Source: Bacilli bacterium (GTDB taxonomy: Bacteria > Bacillota_I > Bacilli_A > RF39 > UBA660). From it: 64,000 nucleotides of DNA. The DNA lies in assembly GCA_017484125.1 (NCBI GenBank), contig JAFUTV010000012.1:1-64000 (forward strand), read 5' to 3'. How positions within the stretch are numbered: the stretch's first letter is position 1; each line of letters opens with the position of its first letter. Below the pieces are notes generated by a model. That model saw only the letters and a program-made list of their open reading frames with translations, made no database searches and was not told where the DNA came from. Of this stretch, positions 41,516 to 64,000 are shown one piece after another. Both the position numbers and the translations under genes were made by a program.

Positions 41516-41660
41516 ATGTCTTATATAATAGTTATGTTTAAAAAAGCGATTGACCAAAGACAGCAAGTGCAAAAGTAAATCTTGCCGAGGGAAGCTAATA
41601 TACAACTTTAATGATGTAATTTTATGCTTTCCACTCTGTGCGAAAGCTTTTTTATATAAA
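41516..41660 (+). ncRNA. L10 ribosomal-protein leader with attenuator
   Basis: The gap between rplA and rplJ contains the L10-leader landmarks: GACCAAAGACAGCAAGTGC, then CTTGCCGAGG. The L10-L12 complex binds such a structure (a kink-turn mimic of its 23S rRNA site) and represses rplJ-rplL. Further on GCTTTC (41626-41631) pairs with GAAAGC (41642-41647) followed by TTTTTT, an intrinsic terminator. An upstream GGGAAGC (about 41590) can pair instead with GCTTTCC, so a terminator/antiterminator switch is plausible. Confidence 0.85.
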
Positions 41661-41687
41661 AAATATAATAGAAAGGAATAAACTAGT

Positions 41688-45244: not shown

Positions 45245-45250
45245 TAATTT

Positions 45251-45520
45251 AATAACTAAGAAAGAGACAAGTAGTAATAGAAATATTTCTAGTGAGTTGG
45301 GTATAGTGGAAACCAATAAATTATCTATTATGAATAACACTCTGGAGTTGCTTACCAAAAGGTAAAACCAAGTAGACTAAGTCGGGTGCAGACCGTTATA
45401 TTTGCTAGATTTGTTTGAATCGAAAAAGTGATCATAAAATTAATAAATTATGATAAATTGGGTGGTACCGCGGAATAACCAGTTTTCGTCCCAAATAGTG
45501 GATGAATACTGGTTTTTTAA
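45251..45520 (+). ncRNA. T-box leader upstream of asnB (Asn specifier)
   Basis: A tRNA-sensing attenuator. Stem I carries GTGAGTTGGGTATAGTGG with its loop, and the specifier region AATAACACTCTGGAG; AAC at 45336-45338 is an asparagine codon. The T-box TGGTACCGCGG is at 45463-45473. The terminator hairpin AACCAGT (45477-45483) with ACTGGTT (45508-45514) and T-run follows. Uncharged tRNA-Asn should favour the antiterminator and switch on asnB. The base after TGG is T, which pairs best with an A73 discriminator; bacterial tRNA-Asn usually has G73, so a wobble pair is needed. Confidence 0.92.
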
Positions 45521-45549
45521 ATCTTAAAACGCGGAAAGGAGAATTTATT

Positions 45550-47121
45550 ATGTGCAGTTTTATGGTTTATACTGATGTAGATATCAGTGATGAAAGTTTT
45601 AAAAAGGGGTTTGATAGGATAAAATATAGAGGTCCTGATATGTCAAAAATAATAAAGAAAAATGGCATATGGGGATTTCATAGACTTGCAATTATGGGAC
45701 TTGATGAAAGTGGCATGCAACCATTTGAAAAAGATGAAAAAAGAGTTGTATGTAATGGAGAATTGTATGGTTTTAGAAAAGTAAAGGAAGAGTTAATTAA
45801 AGAGGGGTATAAGTTTTCATCTGATAGTGACTGTGAAATAATTTTACCAATGTTTGAAAAATATGGTGTAGAAATGTTTAAAAAACTAGATGCTGAATTT
45901 GCTTGCGTATTATTTGATGGAACAGATTTTATTGCCGCAAGAGACCCAATTGGAATACGACCAATGTTTTATGGATACAGTAAATCAAATCATATTGCTT
46001 TTGCTTCTGAAGCTAAAGCATTAGTTAATATATGTGATAAGATAATGCCATTTCCTCCAGGCCATTATTATAAGGATGGAAAGTTTATTTGCTATTATGA
46101 TGCGACTAAATATAGTAAATATATCGATGATGATATCAATAATATTTGTTTTAAAATCAAAGAAAAATTAATTGATGGTGTATTAAAAAGATTAGATAGT
46201 GATGCACCATTAGGATTTTTACTAAGTGGTGGTCTTGATTCAAGTTTGGTGTGTGCAATTGCTCAAAAGCATTTAGATAAGCCTATTAAAACTTTTGCTA
46301 TTGGTATGAGTAAAGATGCTATAGATTTAAAGTATGCTAAAGAAGTTGCTGATTATATTGGCAGTGATCATACTGAAGTATATATGGAACCAGAAGATGT
46401 AATAAATATATTAGAGGAAGTTATATATCATTTAGAAACATGGGATATAACAACTATAAGAGCATCAATTGGAATGTATATGCTAACTAAATGGATTTCT
46501 AAAAATACTGATATTAAAGTGTTAATGACAGGTGAGGTATCTGATGAACTATTTGGTTATAAATATACCGATTTTGCGCCAAATGCAAAAGAATTTCAAA
46601 AAGAATCAGAAAAACGTATCAGAGAACTTTATATGTATGATGTATTAAGAGCAGATAGATGCATATCTGGGGCATCGTTAGAGGGGAGAGTCCCTTTTGC
46701 TGATTTAGAATTTGTAAATTATGTAATGGGAATTAATCCCGAAATAAAATTAAATAAGTATAATAAAGGTAAATATTTATTACGTCATGCATTCGAAGGT
46801 GATTATTTACCACATGATATATTATATAGAGAAAAAGCAGCTTTTTCTGATGCTGTTGGACATTCAATGGTAGATTATTTAAAAGAATATGCAGAAAAAA
46901 AATATAGTGATGATGATTTTCAAAAATTATGTAAAAAGTTTGATAAACATACACCATTTACTAAAGAATCTTTATTATATAGAGAAATATTTGAAAAGTA
47001 TTATCCTAATCAAAGTGATATGATTATAGATTACTGGATGCCTAATAAGAATTGGGATGGATGTGATGTTAAAGATCCATCTGCTAGAGTCTTATCAAAC
47101 TATGGAGAAAGTGGAAAATAA
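45550..47121 (+). CDS. asnB: Asparagine synthetase (glutamine-hydrolysing), T-box controlled
   Basis: A 523-residue enzyme that amidates aspartate with glutamine and ATP. The start must be ATG 45550, since maturation exposes Cys2 as the glutaminase nucleophile (MCSFMVY); reading from 45502 would hide it and would lie in the terminator. RGPD and NGELYG fit the class II glutaminase domain (1-190). The synthetase domain has the PPi-loop SGGLDSS at 226-232. GEVSDELFGY and the C-terminal region resemble E. coli/eukaryote-type AsnB of about 520-560 residues. GGAAAGGAG precedes the start. A second, longer asnB lies at 58.6 kb. Confidence 0.95.
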   Translation: MCSFMVYTDVDISDESFKKGFDRIKYRGPDMSKIIKKNGIWGFHRLAIMGLDESGMQPFEKDEKRVVCNGELYGFRKVKEELIKEGYKFSSDSDCEIILPMFEKYGVEMFKKLDAEFACVLFDGTDFIAARDPIGIRPMFYGYSKSNHIAFASEAKALVNICDKIMPFPPGHYYKDGKFICYYDATKYSKYIDDDINNICFKIKEKLIDGVLKRLDSDAPLGFLLSGGLDSSLVCAIAQKHLDKPIKTFAIGMSKDAIDLKYAKEVADYIGSDHTEVYMEPEDVINILEEVIYHLETWDITTIRASIGMYMLTKWISKNTDIKVLMTGEVSDELFGYKYTDFAPNAKEFQKESEKRIRELYMYDVLRADRCISGASLEGRVPFADLEFVNYVMGINPEIKLNKYNKGKYLLRHAFEGDYLPHDILYREKAAFSDAVGHSMVDYLKEYAEKKYSDDDFQKLCKKFDKHTPFTKESLLYREIFEKYYPNQSDMIIDYWMPNKNWDGCDVKDPSARVLSNYGESGK

Positions 47122-58632: not shown

Positions 58633-60453
58633 ATGTGTGGAATAGCAGGATTTGTTAATAAAAAAGATAATAAAGATGAAATAATAAAAAGTATGGCTGA
58701 TAAAATAGCTCATCGTGGACCTGATGGACAGGGATATTATATAGATGAAAATATTGCTTTAGCACATCGAAGACTTGCTATAATTGATTTAAATACAGGT
58801 GCACAACCAATGTATAGCAAAGACAAAAATATAGTTATAGTATTTAATGGTGAAATTTATAATTATTTAGATTTAAGAAAAGAATTAAAAGATAAGGGTT
58901 ATAAATTTCAAAATAAATCAGATACTGAGGTTATTATTTATGGATATATTGAATGGAAAGAAAAGGTTGTTGAACATTTAAGGGGTATGTTTGCTTTTGC
59001 TATTTATGATATTAAAAATAAAGAATTATTTTTAGCAAGAGATAAATGGGGAATAAAACCACTTTATTATGCAATGTTTAATGATACATTTATGTTTGCT
59101 TCAGAAATAAAATCTTTGCTTGTTCACCCAGATTTTGATAAAAAATTAAATGAAAATATCTTATCAGCATATCTTTGCTTTAATTCTACACCAACTACTG
59201 AAACATTTTTCAAAGGTGTATATAGATTAGAACCTGGAACTACTTTAAAATTTAAGAATGGTAAATATAAAATTAATAAATATTTTCAAGTAGATTTTGA
59301 ACCAAAAAATCAAAAGATGGATGATATTGTTGAAAACATAAAAAAAGCAATGGAAAATTCTGTTACATACCATCAAATAAGTGATGTTGAAGTAGGCTCA
59401 TTTTTATCATCTGGTATTGATTCATCTTATTTAGTATCACTATCTAGACCAGATAAAACATATACAGTTGGATATGATAATCCTAAATATGATGAAATAA
59501 AATATGCTAAGGATTTAACTGATAAACTGAATATATCTAATACTTCTAAGAAGATAACAAAAAAAGAGTATATGGATAATTTTGAAAAAATAATGTACTA
59601 TATGGATGAACCACTTGCTGATCCATCCGCAATTGCATTATATTTTGTTGCAGAAATTGCATCAAAGGATGTTAAAGTTGTATTTTCTGGTGAAGGTGCT
59701 GATGAATTTTTTGGAGGATATGGTACATACTTAGAAGATATTACTCAAAGTTGGTATATGAAAATACCTTATCCAATTAGACATGTTGGTGCAATGATAG
59801 CTAAATTACTACCGGATGTAAGGGGATTAAATTTTATTTATCGACGTGGACAACATTTAAAAGATTATAATATTGGGCTTGGCAGAGTATTTAGAGATGA
59901 AGAGGCTAATAAGATTGTCAGATTAAAAAATCAAATACATACAAAAGAAATAGTTGCTTCATTATATGATGATTATAAAGATAAAGATGATACTTCTAAA
60001 AGACAAGTAATAGATTATTACTATTGGTTAGTAAAAGATTTCTTACATGCAGTAGATAGAAATACTATGATGTTTTCCCTAGAGGCACGTACTCCATTTT
60101 TAGATGATGAAGTTTATAAAATTGCCAGAACTTTACCAGTAAGTGCCAAAATAAACAACGAAACTACTAAACCAGCTTTAAGACAGGCTGCAAAAAGTGT
60201 TATTCCAAATGAATCTTATAAAAAGAAAAAGTTAGGATTTCCAGTTCCTTTAAGAGAATGGATTAAGGAAGATGATTTATATAATCAAATTAAAGTTAAA
60301 TTTGAAAGTAAAGAAGCCAATTATTTCTTTAAACAAAAGAAAATACTAAAGTTATTAGAACAACACAAGGCAGGAAAAAAAGATTGTTATAAAAAAGTTT
60401 GGACTATATATACTTTCTTGGTATGGTATGATATATATTTTAAAGAAGCCTAG
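58633..60453 (+). CDS. asnB: Asparagine synthetase (glutamine-hydrolysing), long form
   Basis: A 606-residue enzyme of the Bacillus AsnB/AsnO type. The protein begins MCGIAGFVNK with the Cys2 glutaminase nucleophile and RGPDGQG. The synthetase loop reads SSGIDSS (about 257-263), as is common in this branch. AEFFGG-like EGADEFFGGY is present. It is longer than the T-box-controlled copy and differs in sequence, so it is not a recent duplicate. It has no leader of its own; it is the third gene of the tex-LtaS-like-asnB unit, with AGGTGA upstream. Some members of this branch amidate cell-wall or peptide substrates, but free Asn synthesis is equally possible. Confidence 0.92.
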   Translation: MCGIAGFVNKKDNKDEIIKSMADKIAHRGPDGQGYYIDENIALAHRRLAIIDLNTGAQPMYSKDKNIVIVFNGEIYNYLDLRKELKDKGYKFQNKSDTEVIIYGYIEWKEKVVEHLRGMFAFAIYDIKNKELFLARDKWGIKPLYYAMFNDTFMFASEIKSLLVHPDFDKKLNENILSAYLCFNSTPTTETFFKGVYRLEPGTTLKFKNGKYKINKYFQVDFEPKNQKMDDIVENIKKAMENSVTYHQISDVEVGSFLSSGIDSSYLVSLSRPDKTYTVGYDNPKYDEIKYAKDLTDKLNISNTSKKITKKEYMDNFEKIMYYMDEPLADPSAIALYFVAEIASKDVKVVFSGEGADEFFGGYGTYLEDITQSWYMKIPYPIRHVGAMIAKLLPDVRGLNFIYRRGQHLKDYNIGLGRVFRDEEANKIVRLKNQIHTKEIVASLYDDYKDKDDTSKRQVIDYYYWLVKDFLHAVDRNTMMFSLEARTPFLDDEVYKIARTLPVSAKINNETTKPALRQAAKSVIPNESYKKKKLGFPVPLREWIKEDDLYNQIKVKFESKEANYFFKQKKILKLLEQHKAGKKDCYKKVWTIYTFLVWYDIYFKEA

Positions 60454-62286: not shown

Positions 62287-62787
62287 ATGAATAATTATAT
62301 TTCTAAACATGATGATGTTAAATATTTATGTCAAAGAATAAAAGGATTATTAAAAGATAAAGTTGTTTTGGGTACATATGGACAATCTAAAGAAATCTTA
62401 GCGGGAGTATATAGAAAAGATCCAGATGTGACAGCATTATATGATGGAATAGCCTTTTATATTGAATATAATAGTAATTATTATTTAAGGTTGCATACTG
62501 AAGGTAATAATGAAATGGAAATGCTTAAAGCACTTCAAGATATTGGCTTTGTTTTATCAATTATTGTTGATGATTCGAAATTAATAGGTGAGCCATCTGC
62601 ATATTATAAAACAAATGTTGATCAAGAAAAAAGATTATATTTAGAATGGTGTTTTCAAAATAAAGAAGAATGGTTAAATAATTTAGTAAATTCAAACGAA
62701 ATAACTAAAGAAAATCTTGTAATATTTGATAATAATGAAAATAATATAACAAGAAGATTAATTAAAGATAATAGGATAAATATGTAA
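62287..62787 (+). CDS. Unrecognised 166-residue protein downstream of argS
   Basis: A soluble mixed alpha/beta protein without signal peptide. The middle reads DGIAFYIEYNSNYYLRLHTEG, a beta sheet pattern, and the rest is charged and helical. I recognise no family. ATG 62287 follows GGAGG. It lies 29 bp after argS with no terminator between, so it is probably co-transcribed with argS. The promoter of the second T-box begins right after it. Confidence 0.65.
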   Translation: MNNYISKHDDVKYLCQRIKGLLKDKVVLGTYGQSKEILAGVYRKDPDVTALYDGIAFYIEYNSNYYLRLHTEGNNEMEMLKALQDIGFVLSIIVDDSKLIGEPSAYYKTNVDQEKRLYLEWCFQNKEEWLNNLVNSNEITKENLVIFDNNENNITRRLIKDNRINM

Positions 62788-62804: not shown

Positions 62805-62833
62805 TTGACAAATATTTTAAAATATGTTATACT
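62805..62833 (+). promoter_or_regulatory. Sigma-A promoter of the second T-box transcript
   Basis: TTGACA (62805-62810), exactly 17 bp, TATACT (62828-62833): nearly consensus, stronger than the first T-box promoter. Confidence 0.85.
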
Positions 62834-62839
62834 TGTATT

Positions 62840-63137
62840 GCGTTGATGGAGAAAAGTACCCAAGAAGATTTATTTCAGTGAGTTAGGTATAGTGTGAACT
62901 AACAATAAATGCTTGGCGAAAGAACACTCTGGAGCAAACTACCGAAAAGTTATCTTAGTAGGCTAGTTCGGAAGGCAATCCGTTATCAATTTGCTAGGTT
63001 TGATAGAACCGATTAAAGAGATTACTGAAAATATTAAATTATTCATATAACATGTGAATAATTTGTAAGTAATAAATTAAGGTGGCACCACGGATACCCG
63101 TATTCGTCCTTATTGTGGGATGATACGGGTATTTTTA
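62840..63137 (+). ncRNA. T-box leader (Asn specifier) before an unassigned gene
   Basis: A complete T-box. GTGAGTTAGGTATAGTGTG and its hairpin, then GAAAGAACACTCTGGAG; AAC, aligned with the first T-box, reads asparagine. The region CAATCCGTTATC is the standard stem III stretch. The T-box TGGCACCACGG is at 63083-63093, and the terminator ATACCCGTAT (63094-63103) pairs with ATACGGGTAT (63123-63132) before a T-run. TGGC pairs with discriminator G73, exactly that of bacterial tRNA-Asn. It fills most of the 378-bp gap, and it controls the gene at 63166. Confidence 0.93.
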
Positions 63138-63165
63138 TATTAAAACATAAAAAGGAGGAATTAAA

Positions 63166-63960
63166 ATGTTTGAATATGTTGTAGAAAAACCAGAAATGGT
63201 AAAATTAAAAGATGAAGTGCTTAAGTATAGTGACATAGCAAAAAAAAGAATGGAAAGGTTATATTCTATATTAGGAGATGTTGAAGTATCTATTGAATAT
63301 ATTAAAGCTTATTTAGATTACTTTAGTTATACAAATTCTAAAAGAGAAGATTTATTATTTACTAAGGATGCTTTATTAGAAACTTATAGTATTAGTGCTT
63401 CATATCCAAATTTATCAAGTAAAGCAATTAAATTAATAATGGGAGAATATGTTAAAGATTTATTTGATGAAGTTAAACCATTAAGTTATTTTGATGGCAT
63501 GAATTTAAGACAAATGGATGATTCATTTGATAGATTTATGCACTTACTAAGATTAGAGGCAGATAAAAGTGATTTACCTTATATAGAAGAAGAAAAGAAA
63601 ATTGAAGCATTATCTAATGAATATGGAAAGGAATTTATAGATTACATTAAGAAATTTGCTGTTAAATATCATAAAACATTTGATGAAATCTTTTATTCAA
63701 TTCCAGTATCTTCATTAATTAAACCTGATGTTGATATGTTCTATGAAGAAGCTAAGAAAGAATTATTTGGGTATATTGGCTATCCATACTCTTTCTTACT
63801 ATCTAAATCAATGATTTTATTTGATGGAGTTGATGCTTATACAAGTGATGATAAATTAATGTATAATTCATCAAGAAAAGGTAGTTTTGAAGCCCCATTT
63901 ACAGCATCTGAATTTCTTGAAAGTGTAGAATCTAAAAGAAAAGAAATTAGAAAGATGTGA
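63166..63960 (+). CDS. T-box-controlled protein of unknown family
   Basis: A 264-residue soluble protein, mostly helical and acidic, with no signal peptide or membrane helices. I recognise no domain: there are no Walker, Rossmann, metal-binding or synthetase motifs. The N-terminal half has regular amphipathic helices (SDIAKKRMERLYSILGDVEV); the C-terminal half is aromatic-rich (KELFGYIGYPYSFLL). A strong ribosome site (AAAAGGAGGA) precedes ATG 63166. The T-box upstream means expression rises when tRNA-Asn is uncharged, so a link to asparagine supply, charging or Asn-rich protein handling is expected. Only 40 bases follow, so downstream partners such as asnS cannot be excluded. Confidence 0.75.
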   Translation: MFEYVVEKPEMVKLKDEVLKYSDIAKKRMERLYSILGDVEVSIEYIKAYLDYFSYTNSKREDLLFTKDALLETYSISASYPNLSSKAIKLIMGEYVKDLFDEVKPLSYFDGMNLRQMDDSFDRFMHLLRLEADKSDLPYIEEEKKIEALSNEYGKEFIDYIKKFAVKYHKTFDEIFYSIPVSSLIKPDVDMFYEEAKKELFGYIGYPYSFLLSKSMILFDGVDAYTSDDKLMYNSSRKGSFEAPFTASEFLESVESKRKEIRKM

Positions 63961-64000
63961 TTTAATGTCAGATGACAATCATAATTTAAAAAACACATAA

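Follow-up and report, generated by a model that had tools for sequence, protein, structure and literature searches.

The asparagine T-box at the end of the DNA analysed here (the window; 64,000 nucleotides, positions 1 to 64,000 of contig JAFUTV010000012.1) appears to head an asparagine-starvation operon in which two successive sensors of tRNA-Asn charging, the T-box and then a leader-peptide attenuator, drive the expression of asnA and of the gene in front of it, designated orfX; we assign this reading a probability of about 0.7. What is new here is the orfX protein family and an asparagine variant of a known tandem regulation, and the leader peptide with its hairpins is a more novel regulatory part than the T-box and orfX, which had already been noticed in the initial annotation.

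T-box leader and asnA operon

On the forward strand, a sigma-70-type promoter (TTGACA-17-TATACT, with TG before the -10 hexamer; 11/12 consensus matches) occupies positions 62805..62833 and is followed by an asparagine T-box leader at 62834..63114, which matches RF00230 over the full model length with 107.6 bits (E 8.2e-23), above the curated cut-off of that family (gathering score 93). The specifier codon AAC (Asn; 62923..62925) keeps one and the same column in every aligned orfX leader, and the TGGC of the T-box sequence (63083..63086; UGGC in RNA) is complementary to GCCA, the G73-CCA that this genome encodes in its tRNA-Asn(GUU). Both the specifier codon and the NCCA complement, by which T-box membership was judged, fit one tRNA, tRNA-Asn, and these matches lend good support to a genuine, asparagine-specific T-box. 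The leader ends in an intrinsic terminator (63094..63136; stem ATACCCGTAT/ATACGGGTAT, then a T run), past which, in the standard T-box mechanism, the binding of uncharged tRNA lets transcription proceed. The AGGAGG ribosome site of orfX (63153..63158) lies before the ATG at 63166. All of these elements, namely the promoter, the full T-box with its AAC specifier and TGGC/G73 match, the terminator and the strong ribosome site, had been described in the initial annotation and are borne out here.

That description was correct but too short, as a short ORF at 63965..64000 and asnA belong with the T-box and orfX. Reading past position 64000 had been proposed in search of asnS or a transporter; what comes next on this strand is instead asnA (contig 64126-65094), which encodes an ammonia-dependent asparagine synthetase (PF03590, 318 bits, above the curated Pfam cut-off) similar over nearly its whole length to solved AsnA, with strong matches to PDB entries 11AS, 12AS, 4LNS and 9V83. 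The terminator scan found no terminator-like site between orfX and asnA, and a terminator-like hairpin follows asnA. It is well supported that the T-box, orfX, the leader ORF and asnA would be expressed as one operon.

Other genes of asparagine metabolism are present in the same genome, which also encodes AsnRS. Two asnB genes lie within the window (45502-47121 and 58633-60453); the first is under its own T-box (T-box and gene, 45249-47121), which has an AAC specifier and UGGU (not UGGC) and precedes an asnB-type asparagine synthetase, and the RF00230 scan of the window gave no T-box match before the second. An ordinary regulatory RNA, the ribosomal protein L10 leader (RF00557), is located at 41536-41662, and argS is separated from the T-box by a 166-residue ORF (62287-62787) for which no match in Pfam, NCBIfam or PHROGs passed the cut-off.

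Several arrangements in related genomes were also observed. In one genome (G101; locus L093, 4002-5366) a second asnS ends the T-box-orfX-asnA operon, another asnS copy being located elsewhere in the genome. In another (G052; locus L103, 4464-10365) an Asn T-box is followed 28 nt later by a tRNA-Asn gene and then by gatC, gatA, gatB, asnA and asnS, so that this T-box apparently controls the gene of the tRNA it senses. Two tandem T-boxes stand directly before asnA in G066 (L048, 956-1409). The asnA genes of G083 and G094 (L064 and L065) contain four in-frame TGA codons each, which suggests organisms of the same class that may read TGA as a residue.

The orfX family and its avoidance of asparagine

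The product of orfX (63166..63960, forward strand; 264 amino acids) was described in the initial annotation as a helical protein of no recognisable family and with no membrane helices, and this description agrees with our results. It matches nothing in Pfam, NCBIfam or PHROGs, its hydropathy profile reveals no membrane helix (the highest mean over 19 residues is 1.0), and family matches and the search for membrane helices did not place it among the aminoacyl-tRNA synthetases, amino-acid biosynthesis enzymes or transporters. PDB sequence searches and PADLOC yielded nothing usable; the PADLOC matches, one member at 0.003 and one at 0.012, did not identify orfX as a known phage-defence protein. 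No relative was present in the phage, plasmid and viral collections. A wider family search, together with searches by profile, yielded 13 relatives that are 22-45% identical to the window copy, and the structure prediction that had been proposed for this protein gave an AlphaFold model which, with 14 orfX sequences, reaches pLDDT 88.9 and pTM 0.78 and consists mostly of helices with a C-terminal strand pair; the single-sequence model was poor (pLDDT 46.5). Foldseek of the model against the PDB and viral models gave no significant match, and neither the sequence nor the fold searches disclosed the clear match to a known asparagine-related enzyme that had been considered beforehand. To judge from these searches orfX is a new protein family, and its product, as modelled, is a soluble helical protein.

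A single-sequence search of 98 relatives, including four of the same genus, found no orfX and suggested a species-specific insertion, which was overturned by the family search of 386 genomes and the profile searches. Among these 386 genomes, which are draft assemblies sampled from a larger group, asnA was found in 22, orfX (convincing matches) in nine and both in eight (hypergeometric P 2e-10). The order T-box–orfX–asnA, with the T-box directly upstream and asnA directly downstream of orfX, is kept in 12 of the 13 relatives. The exception is G288, where an intact orfX (L097, 215-1072) has no T-box in roughly 200 nt upstream and no asnA was found in the genome. Four of the relatives are 'Bacilli bacterium' metagenome-assembled genomes from goat and water deer gut. 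Close pairs of orfX show purifying selection (dN/dS 0.14-0.34), and nine residues (L83, D98, F100, Y153, H169, P180, D188, P207 and Y233) are invariant across 14 divergent members.

Asparagine is almost missing from the proteins of this operon. Against a background of 139 proteins from neighbouring ORFs of at least 200 amino acids, with a mean of 7.2% Asn, the orfX copies next to asnA have 0-2 Asn over a length of 243-283 residues, and that of the window has 5 in 264; no residue is more depleted in orfX than Asn (z -2.6), with V coming next (z -1.2). The partner AsnA of the window is free of Asn, and those of the other orfX loci have 0-2; in G183 the one Asn in the count falls in an extension ahead of the likely start. 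Throughout the orfX-bearing clade AsnA has 0-4 Asn per protein, as against 8-22 in the other AsnA clade, and the AsnRS encoded within the operon of G101 has none in 454 amino acids, the only background protein without Asn. The orphan orfX of G288, outside any such operon, has 19 Asn in 285 residues (6.7%), which is the background value. Enzymes that make an amino acid tend to avoid it, a bias that is significant for asparagine across 1,790 organisms (PMC4209129); the present case is similar in that a biosynthetic enzyme avoids its own product, whereas here the avoidance is near-total and extends to orfX and to the AsnRS of G101. As orfX and AsnA are almost devoid of Asn codons, both can be made during starvation, and no other evidence speaks as strongly as this avoidance for a need to make orfX when asparagine is lacking. 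The earlier suggestion that the protein may belong to asparagine supply or to the starvation response therefore gains a tie to starvation, through the conserved asnA neighbour and the near-absence of Asn, although it had been made with asnA, the leader peptide and the hairpins overlooked.

What orfX does in such a response can be approached through its association with AsnA. In the AsnA tree a single clade (21 rows, 100/100 support), separate from the other AsnA (13 rows), holds every orfX-associated AsnA, and an RF00230 T-box stands upstream of all 13 orfX-asnA loci and of all eight orfX-less asnA loci of that clade. It is possible, if doubtful, that orfX serves AsnA as a dedicated partner or an allosteric subunit, perhaps as a helical binder that controls its activity or stability in a two-protein enzyme system: its place directly before asnA in the window and nearly all relatives, its occurrence beside asnA with this one clade only, and the scarcity of Asn in both proteins speak for such a partnership, but eight of the 21 AsnA do without orfX and G288 retains orfX in a genome where no asnA was found. 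AsnA would thus not strictly need orfX, as the orfX-less loci belong to the same clade, and the scattered distribution of orfX over 13 of the 21 clade members fits several losses.

We consider it unlikely that orfX encodes a novel enzyme for supplying or salvaging asparagine, for instance a hydrolase or peptidase that carries no known motif. The invariant polar residues D98, Y153, H169, D188 and Y233 could be read in this way, as could the Asn-responsive control and the Asn avoidance, but neither an enzyme family, nor a fold match, nor a recognisable catalytic motif was found. The ranking favours a protein with an accessory or regulatory part in the response to asparagine starvation over a classical enzyme, and to this inferred activity we give about even odds. 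AsnA can exist without orfX and, in one genome, orfX without AsnA.

Leader peptide and hairpins before asnA

The short ORF at 63965..64000, between orfX and asnA on the forward strand, encodes the Asn-rich peptide MSDDNHNLKNT and is preceded by an extended Shine-Dalgarno sequence, AAAGATGTGAT (63951..63961), which overlaps the end of orfX and agrees at 9/11 positions with AAGGAGGTGAT. Comparable peptides, given here up to the stop codon, are MSEDNNNNNAS, MSDDNNNNNNLKIICIK and MSDDNNNIKRSRIK in other orfX loci, and MLDNNNKNNNTKQILI and MEEDDNN in orfX-less loci. A leader ORF with two or more Asn and a Shine-Dalgarno match of 9/11 or better is present in 15 of 20 loci, as compared with 2/4000 shuffles and 0/174 other upstream regions; under this strict test five of the 20 loci lack a clear Asn leader ORF. 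The peptides are 7-17 residues long with 34% of residues being Asn, and 55-168 nt lie between their stop codon and the start of asnA. The other AsnA clade yielded no ORF of this kind with a strong Shine-Dalgarno sequence. It is well supported that a short translatable ORF rich in cognate codons precedes the biosynthetic gene. In the openly readable literature that was searched, no report of an asparagine leader peptide was found.

Long leaders contain, after the ORF, element 1 (CAUAAAAUAGAU), element 2 (AUCUAUUUUAUG), element 3 (AUAAAAUAGAU) and element 4. In the window only the start of element 1 is included (CATAAAATAGATA, 63996..64000, forward strand, continuing to contig 64008), elements 2-4, the asnA Shine-Dalgarno sequence and asnA lying beyond it. 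Helices 1:2 and 2:3 both use element 2 and are mutually exclusive. Helix 1:2 has two compensatory pairs, and pairing in helix 2:3 is complete (100%) and includes one compensatory pair in common with 1:2, the independent lineages for both helices being few; an A-U to G-C exchange in elements 1, 2 and 3 of three loci (L074, L109 and L180) keeps both helices. Helix 3:4, with a CCUACA-type loop, is present in 16 leaders with 96.8% paired cells, and its covariation is 0.290 versus 0.093, with none of 500 shuffles as high. The placement of the leader stop codon is constant: in long leaders it falls within element 1 or precedes it by 3 nt, and in short leaders it precedes the 3:4 stem by 1-7 nt. Element 4 with its CCU loop can pair with the asnA Shine-Dalgarno region in many loci (mean z -1.1), and such a sequestering pairing 4:5 is only suggestive. 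Two further roles for these structures were considered. The first hairpin alone was rejected as a terminator, having no T run and no G+C stem, and the CCUACA hairpin as a binding site of orfX was weakened by its presence in the orfX-less loci L061 (one changed base), L179, L185 and L189.

By analogy, the leader ORF and hairpins look like an asparagine leader-peptide attenuator below the T-box. In equilibrium folding, the loss of access to the asnA Shine-Dalgarno sequence that is expected at the leader stop codon is clear in L109 and L061 alone; between the stalled and the stop position most leaders are unchanged, and L071 and L185 change in the opposite direction. Stalling and termination differ little in several leaders, where no more than 6-12 nt separate the Asn codons from the stop. 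The lack of a uniform switch in folding would fit an intergenic region that is no attenuator at all, in which the ORF and hairpins only aid re-initiation or mRNA stability while the T-box alone sets the response, and L190 and L059 indeed run asnA from a T-box without a leader. We regard this as improbable, given that the Asn enrichment, the extended Shine-Dalgarno sequence, the compensatory changes in elements 1, 2 and 3 and the constant stop placement are hard to explain without regulation.

Proposed mechanism and related systems

It is scarcely credible that orfX is a passenger inserted by chance between T-box and asnA, which the initial annotation would have concluded from a downstream asnS and the absence of orfX from relatives: the four same-genus genomes searched do lack orfX, and also asnA, but in relatives orfX is conserved beside asnA, with its position kept in several genera, purifying selection and Asn avoidance.

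In the proposed tandem mechanism, uncharged tRNA-Asn would bind the T-box and allow transcription to pass the terminator, giving a transcript that would carry, in this order, orfX, the Asn-rich leader peptide and asnA. When Asn-tRNA is scarce, ribosomes would stall on the Asn codons of the leader and leave the first hairpin arm free; when it is plentiful, the ribosome would reach the leader stop codon and mask the 5' arm of the first hairpin, and this masking may shift the choice among the competing helices 1:2, 2:3 and 3:4 and with it the access to the asnA ribosome site. The direction of the switch, in which stalling would mean on, was chosen on physiological grounds. AsnA, by homology, would make asparagine from aspartate and ammonia, and orfX would act as an accessory or regulatory protein of the starvation response. 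In the source organism, a gut bacterium, an asparagine-making gene is apparently switched on by two successive starvation sensors.

Chen and Yanofsky (2003, 2004) reportedly described a Trp leader peptide in the anti-TRAP operon of B. subtilis. The likeness to that operon is twofold: a T-box (transcriptional) and a cognate-codon leader peptide (translational) sense one uncharged tRNA in tandem, and the T-box controls a protein of formerly unknown function. The operon described here differs in that the amino acid is Asn, not Trp, and that the leader, which lies between the first gene and the biosynthetic gene, would act, if it does so, by way of hairpins. Anti-TRAP is a small zinc-binding protein with cysteine motifs, whereas the orfX of the window is a helical protein of 264 amino acids with no cysteine and no Pfam match; its size and the lack of cysteines in the window copy rule out orfX as anti-TRAP. 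To our knowledge, tandem T-box and leader-peptide sensing of one uncharged tRNA is documented only for tryptophan in B. subtilis.

That a Trp T-box controls the B. subtilis anti-TRAP gene (rtpA/yczA) is stated in PMC11255114. A T-box survey (PMC2494555) includes hypothetical proteins under T-boxes, and its available portion shows neither asnA nor orfX. The Asn T-box leaders of Firmicutes, as far as that portion and several genomes in our sample present them, belong to the same RNA family, with an AAC specifier and asnA, asnB or asnS downstream; compared with them, orfX and an Asn leader peptide are additionally found here between the T-box and asnA. The AsnA associated with orfX is set apart from other AsnA by its separate clade and its low Asn content.

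More tentatively, and below even odds, orfX may be the founding example both of a new fold and of a new class of proteins for amino-acid starvation, which would be made only when tRNA-Asn is uncharged, is nearly free of Asn and would act in trans on AsnA, tRNA-Asn or stalled ribosomes, its operon being under tandem T-box and Asn leader-peptide control. The near-total loss of Asn in orfX and AsnA, and not in the orfX outside the operon, is a natural experiment that points to a strong selection to keep translation starvation-proof. Where homology and fold searches fail, unknown T-box genes could be assigned to a starvation response by their avoidance of the amino acid that is sensed. The asparagine version of tandem sensing, if true, would make tandem sensing a general design.
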